Shown here: positions 53,453-57,783 of the stretch, in pieces | How the letters are laid out: every line of letters begins with the position of its first letter | How positions within the stretch are numbered: position 1 is the stretch's first letter | Assembly: GCA_030728245.1 (NCBI GenBank) | Contig: JANQZX010000035.1 | Coordinates: 17,732 to 81,731, forward strand | Direction: 5' to 3' | DNA length: 64,000 nt | DNA from: Saprospiraceae bacterium | GTDB lineage: Bacteria > Bacteroidota > Bacteroidia > Chitinophagales > Saprospiraceae | Position numbers and translations under genes: made by a program | The notes under the pieces: generated by a model | Database searches by the model: none | What the model saw: the letters and a program-made list of their open reading frames with translations, nothing else | What the model was told of the DNA's origin: nothing

Positions 53453-53490
53453 AAAAAAAGAGGCCATCTTTTCAGACAGCCTCTTTTTTT
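53453..53490. terminator. Bidirectional intrinsic terminator at the end of the aromatic operon
   Basis: AAAAAAAGAGGC...GCCTCTTTTTTT inverted repeat immediately 3' of the minus-strand operon. Confidence 0.85.
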
Positions 53491-53497
53491 GAAATGC

Positions 53498-54580
53498 TTA
53501 ATTTCCTTGCATCACCTTTTCCTGGTGATTTATAGATTCCTGATGAATCGCTTTTAGCGTGGTTTCTACAAACTCCTCGCTTAATCCTTTTTTAGTACCT
53601 ATGGAAAGACCTCTTTCCAAAATTTCGTTCCAACGATTAGTTTGAAGAATAGCAATATTATTGTCTTTCTTAAATTTGCCAATACCTTCGGCCAATTTCA
53701 TTCTTCGGGCATATAGATTCATTAATTCATCGTCAATTTCATCAATTTCATGTCTTAAATGATCAATATTATTGTGAAATTCAGGATTATCGGTGGTAGC
53801 GAGCCTGAACTTTAACTTATTATAAAGTTCTGCGCCATATACCTCCGGGGTAATTTGCTGGGCAGCGTCACTCCAGGCCTCATCGGGACGAGGATGAACT
53901 TCGGTCATAAGGCCGTCAAAATTAAGGTCAAATCCCTTTTGGGCCACTGCCAATAAAGTATCTCTGCGTCCGCATATATGACTATTATCCACAATAATTT
54001 CTAAATCTGGAAATAATCTTTTCAACTCAATGGCAATTTGCCAGCGGGGAATATTTCTATAGTTTGATTCCCCATGATGAGAGAATCCCCTCTGAATAGC
54101 GGCAATTCTTCTGATACCTGCATTATAAACCCTTTCGATGGCACCAATCCATAATTTCAGATCAGGGTTCACCGGATTTTTAATTAATACAGGAATATCC
54201 ACGCCTTTCAAGGCATCGGCTACTTCCTGCACGGAGAAAGGATTTACCGTCGTACGTGCACCTATCCAAAGTACATCAACGCCAGCTTTCAGGGCTTCAA
54301 AAACATGCTGGGTATTGGCCACCTCCGTTGTAACAGGCAAACCAGTTTCAGCTTTCACCTTTTTAAGCCAGGGCAAACCAATGGCGCCTACCCCTTCAAA
54401 TTCACCGGGACGGGTTCTTGGTTTCCAGATTCCTGCTCTAAAAAGATCCACTTTACCGAGAGCAGCTAAACCGCGCGCCGCCTGAAGTACTTGTTCTTCT
54501 GATTCAGCACTGCAAGGGCCGGCAATAATAATTGGACGTTTTTCCGTACGTGCCAAAACGGGGCTAAATGTCATTTCCAT
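53498..54580 (-). CDS. Bifunctional 3-deoxy-7-phosphoheptulonate synthase/chorismate mutase type II
   Basis: IIAGPCSAESEEQV...FRAGIWKPRTRPGEFEG DAHP synthase; C-terminal IDHLRHEIDEIDDELMNLYARRMKLAEGIGKFK chorismate mutase. Confidence 0.94.
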   Translation of the reverse strand: MEMTFSPVLARTEKRPIIIAGPCSAESEEQVLQAARGLAALGKVDLFRAGIWKPRTRPGEFEGVGAIGLPWLKKVKAETGLPVTTEVANTQHVFEALKAGVDVLWIGARTTVNPFSVQEVADALKGVDIPVLIKNPVNPDLKLWIGAIERVYNAGIRRIAAIQRGFSHHGESNYRNIPRWQIAIELKRLFPDLEIIVDNSHICGRRDTLLAVAQKGFDLNFDGLMTEVHPRPDEAWSDAAQQITPEVYGAELYNKLKFRLATTDNPEFHNNIDHLRHEIDEIDDELMNLYARRMKLAEGIGKFKKDNNIAILQTNRWNEILERGLSIGTKKGLSEEFVETTLKAIHQESINHQEKVMQGN

Positions 54581-54599: not shown

Positions 54600-55442
54600 T
54601 CAGGAAATAATGCGTTTTATAGCATTTGCTTCCTCGATAAGTGTGTGAAATGTATCAAAATCGTTTTTTATAAGTAAACTTCGAAATTGCGATAATTGGT
54701 TAATGTGTTCATCCAAAACATCGAGAACATTATCTCTGTTTTGTTTGAAAATGGGTATCCAGGTATCCGGAGAAGATTTAGCCAGACGAACCGTACTGCT
54801 GAATCCTGAACCTGCTAATTCAAATATTCTATTTTCATCTTTTTCCTTTGCGAGCACCGTTAAAGCTAAGGCAAATGAGCTAATATGAGAAATATGCGAA
54901 ACATAAGCGGTGTGTACATCGTGCGATTTCGAATCCAATTCTAATACCTTCATATTCAATGAAGAAAAAATATTCCGAACTGTTTCTAGTGCATCCGGCG
55001 CACTAAGTTCAACATCGCAGAGAACGGTATATTTGCCTTCAAACAAATGAGGAATAGCAGCCTCCGGTCCCGAAAATTCAGTGCCCGCCATTGGGTGAGC
55101 AGCAACATATCTATTCCTTCTCGGGTGCAAGCGAACAGCCTCTGATAATTGCATTTTAGTGGAACCTACGTCCATTACTATTTGAAGATCGGTAATACTT
55201 GAAAGTAGTTCGGGGATAATTCTTACCATGCTATCCATTGGGGTAGAAACTATAAAAAGATCCGCTCTTTTTATTGCTTCAGGTAAGGTTACTATCTCAT
55301 CTGCCAATCCAAGTTTTAAAGCTTTAGCTGCATTGTCAGACTGACTGTCAATACCCAATATATGATTTATTCCCGCTCTGTTTTTAAGGGAAATTCCTAA
55401 AGACCCACCAATTAAGCCTAATCCAATAATGGCTACAATCAT
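54600..55442 (-). CDS. tyrA: Prephenate dehydrogenase
   Basis: IIGLGLIGGSLGISLK, VSTPMDSM, AAHPMAGTEFSGPEAA. Confidence 0.92.
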   Translation of the reverse strand: MIVAIIGLGLIGGSLGISLKNRAGINHILGIDSQSDNAAKALKLGLADEIVTLPEAIKRADLFIVSTPMDSMVRIIPELLSSITDLQIVMDVGSTKMQLSEAVRLHPRRNRYVAAHPMAGTEFSGPEAAIPHLFEGKYTVLCDVELSAPDALETVRNIFSSLNMKVLELDSKSHDVHTAYVSHISHISSFALALTVLAKEKDENRIFELAGSGFSSTVRLAKSSPDTWIPIFKQNRDNVLDVLDEHINQLSQFRSLLIKNDFDTFHTLIEEANAIKRIIS

Positions 55443-55444
55443 TA

Positions 55445-56626
55445 TTAAACTTTTAGTTCAGATAAATGAATTCTTTCCAAAGCCTCTTCAAAATCAGTTA
55501 CGGGACTGCAAAGAGAAATTCTAAGATATTGATCGCCGCCGCTGCCAAAAATACCGCCTGGCGTAATAAATAAATTAGTTTCATAGAGCAGTCTATCGGC
55601 CAATTGATAGGCATTTTCAAAAACATCAGGAATTTTTGCCCATAAAAACATGCCTACCTGATTATTTGCATACTTACAACCCAATAAATCCATTACCTTT
55701 TCAGCCACCTTTCTTCTTTCTAAATATACCTTATTCAGATTTTCATACCATGCATCGGTTAGTTCCAGCGCGGTGATAGCTGCTTTTTGAACGCCATAAA
55801 ACATGCCAGAATCCATATTACTTTTAAATCGTAATATTTCAGCTAAATAATCAGCTCTACCCGCTAACATGCCTATCCTCCATCCTGCCAAATTATGTGC
55901 TTTGCTTAAAGAATTTAACTCCAAAGCAACATCCATAGCACCAGGGACAGATAAAAGGCTATGTTTTTCAGGATTTAATACAAAGGTATATGGATTATCA
56001 TTCACCAATAATATATGGTATTGTTTGGCAAACTGAATCAGCGCTGTAAAATAATCCTTATCTGCGGGAGCGCCTGTAGGCATATTAGGATAATTAAGCC
56101 ACATTAATTTGACCTTAGAAAGGTCAGTTTTTGCGAGAAGATCCAGATCTGCCTGCCAGTTTTTTGACTCTTCCAAGGCATAATAGCGCAACGTTGCCCC
56201 CGTCAACTGAGCTACTGCAGAATAAGCCGGGTATCCAGGATTGGGCACAAGAACTTCATCACCTGGTTCGAGATAAGTCATAGAAATATGCATAATCCCC
56301 TCTTTGGAACCAATCAGCGGCAAAATTTCAGTATTTGGATTAAGATCAACCTTAAAATATTTTTTATACCACATTGAAAAAGCCTGCCGTAATTCAGGTA
56401 AACCTAAATAAGATTGATAACCATGCACCTCTTTTTTACTACTTTCCCTGATTAAAGTTTGAATAACTTCCTCATCGGGGGCCTGGTCAGGGCTTCCAAT
56501 ACCAAGATTGATAACTTTTTTACCCTCAGCACGTAAAGAAGCAATTTCCTTTAATTTTCTGGAAAAGTAGTATTCCTCTACTTGCCCCATTCTGGAGGCG
56601 GGCAAAATGATGGGCTCGCTTTTCAT
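55445..56626 (-). CDS. PLP-dependent class I/II aminotransferase
   Basis: INLGIGSPDQAP, NPGYPAY, LNYPNMPTGA, SLSKAHNLAGWRIG. Confidence 0.93.
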   Translation of the reverse strand: MKSEPIILPASRMGQVEEYYFSRKLKEIASLRAEGKKVINLGIGSPDQAPDEEVIQTLIRESSKKEVHGYQSYLGLPELRQAFSMWYKKYFKVDLNPNTEILPLIGSKEGIMHISMTYLEPGDEVLVPNPGYPAYSAVAQLTGATLRYYALEESKNWQADLDLLAKTDLSKVKLMWLNYPNMPTGAPADKDYFTALIQFAKQYHILLVNDNPYTFVLNPEKHSLLSVPGAMDVALELNSLSKAHNLAGWRIGMLAGRADYLAEILRFKSNMDSGMFYGVQKAAITALELTDAWYENLNKVYLERRKVAEKVMDLLGCKYANNQVGMFLWAKIPDVFENAYQLADRLLYETNLFITPGGIFGSGGDQYLRISLCSPVTDFEEALERIHLSELKV

Positions 56627-57507
56627 TCCTCAAAATGTTTACCTTGATTATAAATTCCTAGTATCTGCATATTATTTGCCAATGGTTTAATGGCATCAAT
56701 GGCAGATTGAATGGGAACCGATCCCTCTGAAATGAAATCCAGATAGAACTGATATTCCCATGGCTTACCTAAAATGGGGGTAGATTGAATTTTAGAGACA
56801 TTAATATTATAGGCAGCTAAGACAGCTAATACTTTATACAGGCTTCCAACAGTATGATCCACTGAAAATGTTATGGAAACTTTATTGGCCTGATCATCGA
56901 TAATGGCCATTTTCTGAGGTTGTAAAACCCAAAATCTGGTATGATTGGCCTTATTCGTCTCAATACTTGGCGCAAGGATGTTTAAATCGTACATTTTTGC
57001 CGCTAAACTGCTGGCAATAGCACCAATACCCTTCCATTGTCCGTCTTTAATATACTTTGCTGAAAGGGCAGTATCCTCACTTTCGATAAGTTTAATAGAA
57101 GGAAAATTTCTGAAAAACTCACGACATTGTTCAATGGCAATGGGATGGGAATGAACCTCTTTCAAATCGGCTATTGACTGTCCAGGTAAAGCCATTAAAT
57201 TCTGAACAATCCTTAAATACACCTCTCCAACGATAGAGAGAGAAGAATCATGAACCCTTTTGTAGTTAGGTAGCAAAGTTCCTGCAATAGAATTTTCAAT
57301 AGCCATAAGCGCAACATCCACCCTGGTATCACTTTGAGCACTCTCCACTAGTTGGTCGAAAGTTATGGCGGGAATTATTTCAATAGACTGACCTTCAAAA
57401 CAATGTCTTGCAGCAATGTCATGAAAAGCACCAGGCACCCCTTGTATGGCAACGCCCAGAGATTGGGTATTTTTTAACTTCTTTTCAAGTAACGTTTGAG
57501 CGATCAT
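56623..57507 (-). CDS. pheA: Prephenate dehydratase (with ACT domain)
   Basis: IQGVPGAFHDIAARHCF, ALMAIENSIAGTLLPNY, NHTRFWVL, ACT domain with ISKIQSTPILGKPWEYQFYLDF. Confidence 0.94.
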   Translation of the reverse strand: MIAQTLLEKKLKNTQSLGVAIQGVPGAFHDIAARHCFEGQSIEIIPAITFDQLVESAQSDTRVDVALMAIENSIAGTLLPNYKRVHDSSLSIVGEVYLRIVQNLMALPGQSIADLKEVHSHPIAIEQCREFFRNFPSIKLIESEDTALSAKYIKDGQWKGIGAIASSLAAKMYDLNILAPSIETNKANHTRFWVLQPQKMAIIDDQANKVSITFSVDHTVGSLYKVLAVLAAYNINVSKIQSTPILGKPWEYQFYLDFISEGSVPIQSAIDAIKPLANNMQILGIYNQGKHFEE

Positions 57508-57522
57508 AATTCATTTTTAACC

Positions 57523-57548
57523 AAAAAAAAAGTCCCGATGCCGGGACT
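57523..57548 (-). terminator. Attenuator terminator in the pheA leader
   Basis: - strand AGTCCCG-gcat-CGGGACT followed by a run of 9 T, about 16 nt before the pheA ATG. Confidence 0.88.
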
Positions 57549-57588
57549 CTATTTTGCAGAAATAATTTTATAGCAATCATAGCGTCCC
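57543..57588 (-). promoter_or_regulatory. Candidate antiterminator pairing (GGGAC 57588-57584 with GTCCC 57547-57543, extendable across one mismatch by CT/AG)
   Basis: GTCCC is shared with the left arm of the terminator; GGGAC begins two nt after the leader-peptide stop codon. Confidence 0.7.
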
Positions 57589-57589
57589 T

Positions 57590-57646
57590 TTACGACAAAA
57601 CGTAAAAACAGAAACCGCTAAAATAAAATGCTACTGAAAAATTCAT
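57590..57646 (-). CDS. Phe/Tyr-rich leader peptide MNFSVAFYFSGFCFYVLS of the aromatic operon
   Basis: ATG AAT TTT TCA GTA GCA TTT TAT TTT AGC GGT TTC TGT TTT TAC GTT TTG TCG TAA read on the minus strand; 5 Phe and 2 Tyr in 18 codons; preceded by AGGA. Confidence 0.82.
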   Translation of the reverse strand: MNFSVAFYFSGFCFYVLS

Positions 57647-57783
57647 TCCTACGTGTTTTAATATTGTAAAAATAGGATAATTCAATAATATTCCAAAAAA
57701 AGTAAGGAAAAATAATCAACAATTTAACCTAATGGCTATATTATTGCATTAATATCAATTTTTAATCTTTCTAACCTCTTTAT

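Follow-up and report, generated by a model that had tools for sequence, protein, structure and literature searches.

Organization of the locus

The window, the whole 64,000-nucleotide stretch of DNA analysed here, carries on its minus strand the pheA-aminotransferase-tyrA-DAHPS/CM operon proposed in the initial annotation, its genes being identified by Pfam and NCBIfam domain matches. pheA (56623-57507) encodes a prephenate dehydratase with an ACT domain (PF00800 and PF01842, the latter barely above the cut-off) and overlaps by 4 nt the gene of a class I/II aminotransferase (55445-56626; PF00155), for which the best NCBIfam matches are LL-diaminopimelate aminotransferase-like and under the cut-off. 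These are followed by tyrA, encoding prephenate dehydrogenase (54600-55442; NCBIfam NF006307 above the cut-off, PF02153, PF20463), by a DAHP synthase-chorismate mutase fusion (53498-54580; PF00793 and PF01817) and by a probable operon-end terminator, AAAGAGGC..GCCTCTTTTTTT (53453-53490), read directly from the sequence.

Upstream of pheA, on the same strand, lies an open reading frame of 18 codons running from ATG to TAA (57646-57590) and encoding MNFSVAFYFSGFCFYVLS. As the initial annotation had claimed, seven of the 18 residues are Phe or Tyr (codons 3, 7, 8, 9, 12, 14 and 15). Leader peptides of this kind are shorter than the usual ORF cut-offs and are therefore probably unannotated. The end of the frame is embedded in a first pairing (1:2, the protector; 57580-57620), in which TAGCG (57620-57616) and CGCTA (57584-57580), both located where they had been predicted, surround a hairpin over the stop codon, TTTACG-ttttgt-CGTAAA. 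This structure folds at -10.3 kcal/mol. Segment 2, the left arm of the antiterminator, is GGGAC-g-CTAT-ga-TTGC (57588-57572). Its GGGAC had been placed correctly at 57588-57584, and a single nucleotide (A57589), not two, separates it from the stop codon. Segment 3, GCAA-a-ATAG-a-GTCCC (57561-57543), is common, by sequence and folding, to the antiterminator (2:3) and the terminator (3:4). The pairing of GGGAC with GTCCC (57547-57543) described initially does exist and is considerably longer than was thought: GGGAC-g-CUAU-ga-UUGC pairs with GCAA-a-AUAG-a-GUCCC over 13 base pairs at -16.2 kcal/mol. The intrinsic terminator itself, AGTCCCG-GCAT-CGGGACT followed by a T tract (57548-57523; -13.5 kcal/mol), is also present as had been reported; its stem covers 57548-57531 and the T tract 57531-57523, the first T being paired, and its end lies 15 nt before the pheA ATG at 57507. 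For the leader region as a whole the folding energy is -42.7 kcal/mol, with z = -5.3 relative to shuffles, and this, together with conservation across the family, argues that the layout is more than chance.

The -33/-7 promoter consensus of Bacteroidota includes TAnnTTTG as its -7 part. A putative promoter of this type, recognized by eye, is formed by TTTG (57697-57694), a 19-nt spacer and TATTTTTA (57674-57667), and would place the transcription start near 57660. The TTTG-N19-TATTTTTA block is identical in all seven sampled species of the genus, and the 5'-UTR between it and the ATG varies and includes an indel, a pattern that fits a promoter of this type. Promoter calling returned nothing of the sigma-70 type here.

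Conservation of the leader in the genus, the family and beyond

The reading frame and every aromatic codon of the leader are kept in the seven species sampled within the genus. The differences between them are synonymous or fall at non-aromatic positions, including the replacement of a Cys codon by Tyr in two species, and in one species the stop codon is TGA rather than TAA. Named relatives whose pheA is 96-100% identical are metagenome-assembled genomes of Saprospiraceae / Haliscomenobacteraceae.

The family survey covered the DNA upstream of pheA at 130 loci of the window's GTDB family, with very few genomes contributing more than one. To count as a module, a region needed an ORF 9-40 codons long in which Phe and Tyr numbered five or more and made up 25% or more of the peptide, and a terminator 15-110 nt downstream. 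The initial annotation would have been contradicted by orthologous regions devoid of an aromatic-rich ORF or a terminator; the script found both in 115 of the 130 upstream regions. Among the 15 that it missed, a leader is visible by eye in several (L020, L025, L099, L102, L116, L155, L159), and one (L066) is broken off at a contig end. The Phe plus Tyr fraction of the family leaders is 0.42 in frame, against 0.17 and 0.18 in the other two frames and 0.176 in shuffled sequences, a comparison that somewhat overstates the excess because the detector itself demands at least 25% and so raises the in-frame value. Conservation within the genus and the family is independent of this comparison.

Outside the family, 19 pheA-bearing genomes were sampled from other orders of the class, and an F/Y-rich leader precedes pheA in 15 of them (one of which, G309, has two modules). 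The leader also occurs in three genomes of another family of the window's order (two by script and one, G272, by eye) and in two of about 48 genomes sampled elsewhere in the phylum. Several of the loci from other orders of the class (L193-L199, L203, L204) show a variant geometry, with segment 2 located before the leader stop codon and not after it. A Flavo-1 RNA (RF01705) occurs at positions 486-563 of L193, the pheA upstream locus of a class-level relative. No pheA match was obtained in 57 of 197 genomes of the family, which are possibly phenylalanine auxotrophs or carry divergent enzymes.

Base pairing in the leader RNA

The 1:2 / 2:3 / 3:4 attenuator layout first suggested for the window is borne out in its relatives, where all of the pairings show compensatory changes or exceed permutation controls. 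The initial annotation had proposed a search for covariation in both 2:3 and 3:4; it is seen in the alignment columns for 3:4, and for 2:3 there is a permutation excess. The latter pairing was tested by permutation rather than by column covariation because MAFFT does not hold segment 2 in register. Across 154 modules, among which the window genus is represented by one, segment 2-3 pairing reaches 7.72 with a module's own arm and 6.21 with the arms of other modules (sd 0.10; about 15 sd), and windows shifted by 24-30 nt give a far weaker excess. The stop-codon hairpin behaves in the same way (7.46 for own arms and 5.64 for permuted ones, sd 0.116, about 16 sd), with weak or nil signals in controls placed 18 nt upstream or 30 nt downstream; these permutation figures, like the shuffle figures below, are not strict probabilities because related sequences have common ancestry.

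In a MAFFT alignment of 51 modules, 97% of the cells of the hairpin and the terminator are paired, and compensatory changes occur at 10 of the 14 pairs (six of seven for the terminator alone). Compensatory cells number 52, against 10.5 in shuffles, none of the 500 shuffles being as high, and sliding the pairing partner abolishes the signal. RNAalifold, unprompted, recovers the stems of both the stop-codon hairpin and the terminator. It also lengthens the hairpin so that the leading G residues of segment 2 are included, which identifies the hairpin as the 1:2 protector. The best covarying pair of the hairpin, U-A in 36 sequences and C-G in 13, connects two third codon positions, one in a Tyr codon and the other, in most relatives, in a Pro codon. 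The exchanges are synonymous, TAT occurring with CCA and TAC with CCG, which favours RNA pairing and disfavours a constraint on the peptide.

This distinction bears on the possibility that the leader is an arrest peptide resembling TnaC, whose nascent chain would respond not to tRNA charging but to a ligand, for example free Phe or Tyr. Many relatives' peptides do share an FYG-x-P ending before the stop codon. However, this ending coincides with the covarying stop-codon hairpin, so that RNA pairing accounts for it, and it was rejected as a mark of arrest since it encodes that hairpin. Moreover, the window peptide ends in FYVLS and lacks the motif, the hairpin still being present, and the N-terminal halves of the leader peptides vary freely across the family. 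An arrest peptide is thus considered very improbable.

Switching in silico and proposed mechanism

For the window leader, each folding began 13 nt past the first A-site base and ended with segment 3, the ribosome being assumed to cover about 13 nt downstream of its A site. With the ribosome at any of codons 6-16, the nascent RNA forms 2:3 with a probability of 1.00; this falls to 0.26 at codon 17 and to 0 once codon 18 or the stop codon is reached. The logic put forward initially, in which stalling leads to the antiterminator and arrival at the stop codon to the terminator, thus works in silico. Without a ribosome, 1:2 and 2:3 have probabilities of 0.53 and 0.42, respectively, and the completed RNA adopts the terminator. 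Equilibrium folding of the complete leader RNA mostly favours the terminator, even with a ribosome stalled, and the model therefore depends on co-transcriptional order. When the ribosome was placed at the middle F/Y codon or at the stop codon, 137 of 153 modules were switch-like, compared with 20% for shuffled linkers, in tests that are equilibrium foldings of truncated RNA and not kinetics.

A further alternative is that the hairpin terminates partially and without regulation, the ORF being either T-rich noise or the gene of an ordinary small protein. Although T-rich DNA yields Phe and Tyr codons by chance, and the fraction already reaches 17% out of frame, the in-frame excess, the overlapping covarying pairings and the position-dependent switching, far above that of shuffled linkers, make this reading extremely unlikely. 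Trans-acting regulators and T-box or riboswitch elements control aromatic genes in other phyla, but hardly any credence can be given to a regulator of this kind acting on the terminator, with the ORF incidental: an Rfam scan of the window returned no family at gathering score, T-box included, 16 related loci gave no attenuator, T-box or riboswitch match (only the unrelated Flavo-1 in L193), and what is conserved is the codons together with segments 1-4.

Judged by sequence, conservation, covariation and folding, the window element is very probably a ribosome-mediated transcription attenuator, predicted to sense charged tRNA-Phe and tRNA-Tyr. RNA polymerase would be trailed by a ribosome translating the 18-codon leader. 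When charged tRNA is scarce, the ribosome would stall on a Phe or Tyr codon and disrupt the 1:2 hairpin, leaving segment 2 free to pair with segment 3 once this is transcribed; the terminator would then be blocked and the pheA-aminotransferase-tyrA-DAHPS/CM operon transcribed. When charged tRNA is plentiful, the ribosome would reach the stop codon and cover segment 2, and 3:4 would end transcription before pheA. If the leader were left untranslated, 1:2 would compete with 2:3 and the terminator would be favoured. Such a mechanism implies that in Bacteroidota the ribosome trails RNA polymerase closely enough to control termination.

Relationship to known regulatory leaders

The closest functional parallel is the enterobacterial pheA leader (RF01859), which has an aromatic leader peptide, the same 1:2 / 2:3 / 3:4 logic and control of pheA. 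The window leader differs in using both Phe and Tyr codons, in preceding a joint Phe and Tyr operon, in belonging to another phylum and in its unrelated sequence. The Phe_leader model scores 18.7 bits in the window against a threshold of 55, and low-score Rfam matches (E up to 10) were judged to be due to chance. The Bacteroid-trp RNA (RF01692) is a probable cis-regulatory element of the trp pathway in Bacteroidetes (PMC2864571). It resembles the present element as a cis-regulatory RNA of an amino-acid pathway in that group and differs from it in gene and sequence; it had no match in the window or in 30 related genomes.

A published element, absent from the initial annotation, is more directly relevant. 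In the transcriptome of Flavobacterium psychrophilum, pheA is reported to be preceded by a structured 5' element that other Flavobacteriaceae also conserve and that no Rfam family matches; the same report presents, as a separate point, strong clues that leader peptides attenuate operons of amino-acid biosynthesis (PMC9723704). Like the window element, it is structured, lies before pheA in the same phylum and lacks an Rfam match, and it is known to be transcribed; for this element the main text of that report mentions neither a leader peptide nor pairings, covariation or tandem copies. Since comparable leaders are found across the class, it is very likely the same regulator as that of the window, and the phenomenon is therefore not wholly new. 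The leader peptides are covered by no Rfam family, and the present observations would put classical ribosome-mediated attenuation at the core aromatic amino-acid operon over much of a major phylum, for which the searchable papers only hint at it. The window element is very probably a sound, conserved Phe/Tyr attenuator; the tandem form seen in its relatives is the more novel part.

Tandem modules in relatives

Two complete leader-plus-terminator modules, both Phe/Tyr-rich, stand in series in at least 45 of the 130 family loci (for example L008, L009, L011, L012, L013, L015, L017 and L072), an arrangement frequent in relatives that the initial annotation did not include. The window itself has one module only. 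A median of 30 nt separates the first terminator stem from the start of the second leader, which leaves little room for a separate promoter, and the second module would most simply be reached by readthrough of the first. Pairing is better within modules than across them in 35 of the 45 genomes, worse in seven and tied in three. Assignment of one module to one amino acid and of the other module to the other was ruled out, as the F/Y fractions of the two are alike (0.24/0.16 and 0.23/0.17).

A covariance model of the 51 modules gives two strong matches before pheA in relatives that include G036, G007, G026, G020, G043, G029 and G051, and a single match in the window genome; it includes the matched sequences and so shows specificity rather than independent discovery. 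Its matches in three genomes without pheA (G095, G090, G013) were rejected as generic terminators. In the pheA tree, the window genus falls among two-module genera. Given the weak backbone support of this tree, it is no more than likely that the genus once had a second module and lost it. The window peptide stretch FYFSGFCFY resembles first-module peptides such as FYFSSFYFF in L011.

Tandem leader-peptide attenuators are known from the Salmonella mgtCBR leader, where they respond to two different signals, ATP and proline; nutrient biosynthesis genes are normally under a single attenuator (PMC3641672). The relatives of the window resemble mgtCBR in that a single leader RNA carries two successive leader ORFs. 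They differ from it in that both modules are Phe/Tyr-rich, each has its own intrinsic terminator and the pair precedes a biosynthetic operon. A search of largely open-access papers returned no same-signal tandem attenuators in an amino-acid operon and none in Saprospiraceae. It seems probable that the Saprospiraceae-type Phe/Tyr operon is governed by two same-signal attenuators in series, that is, by two ribosome-gated terminators, and that the window genus is secondarily single. If this is true, serial attenuators would multiply repression and steepen the response, and the same-signal tandem of the relatives would offer a natural experiment on why one attenuator is insufficient.

Many second-module leaders (L008, L009, L011, L013, L017) also have a conserved CCTAACCA-like stretch, encoding the peptide PNQ, near the start codon. 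A stretch of this kind is kept in L016, which has no intact second module, and is possibly a relic.
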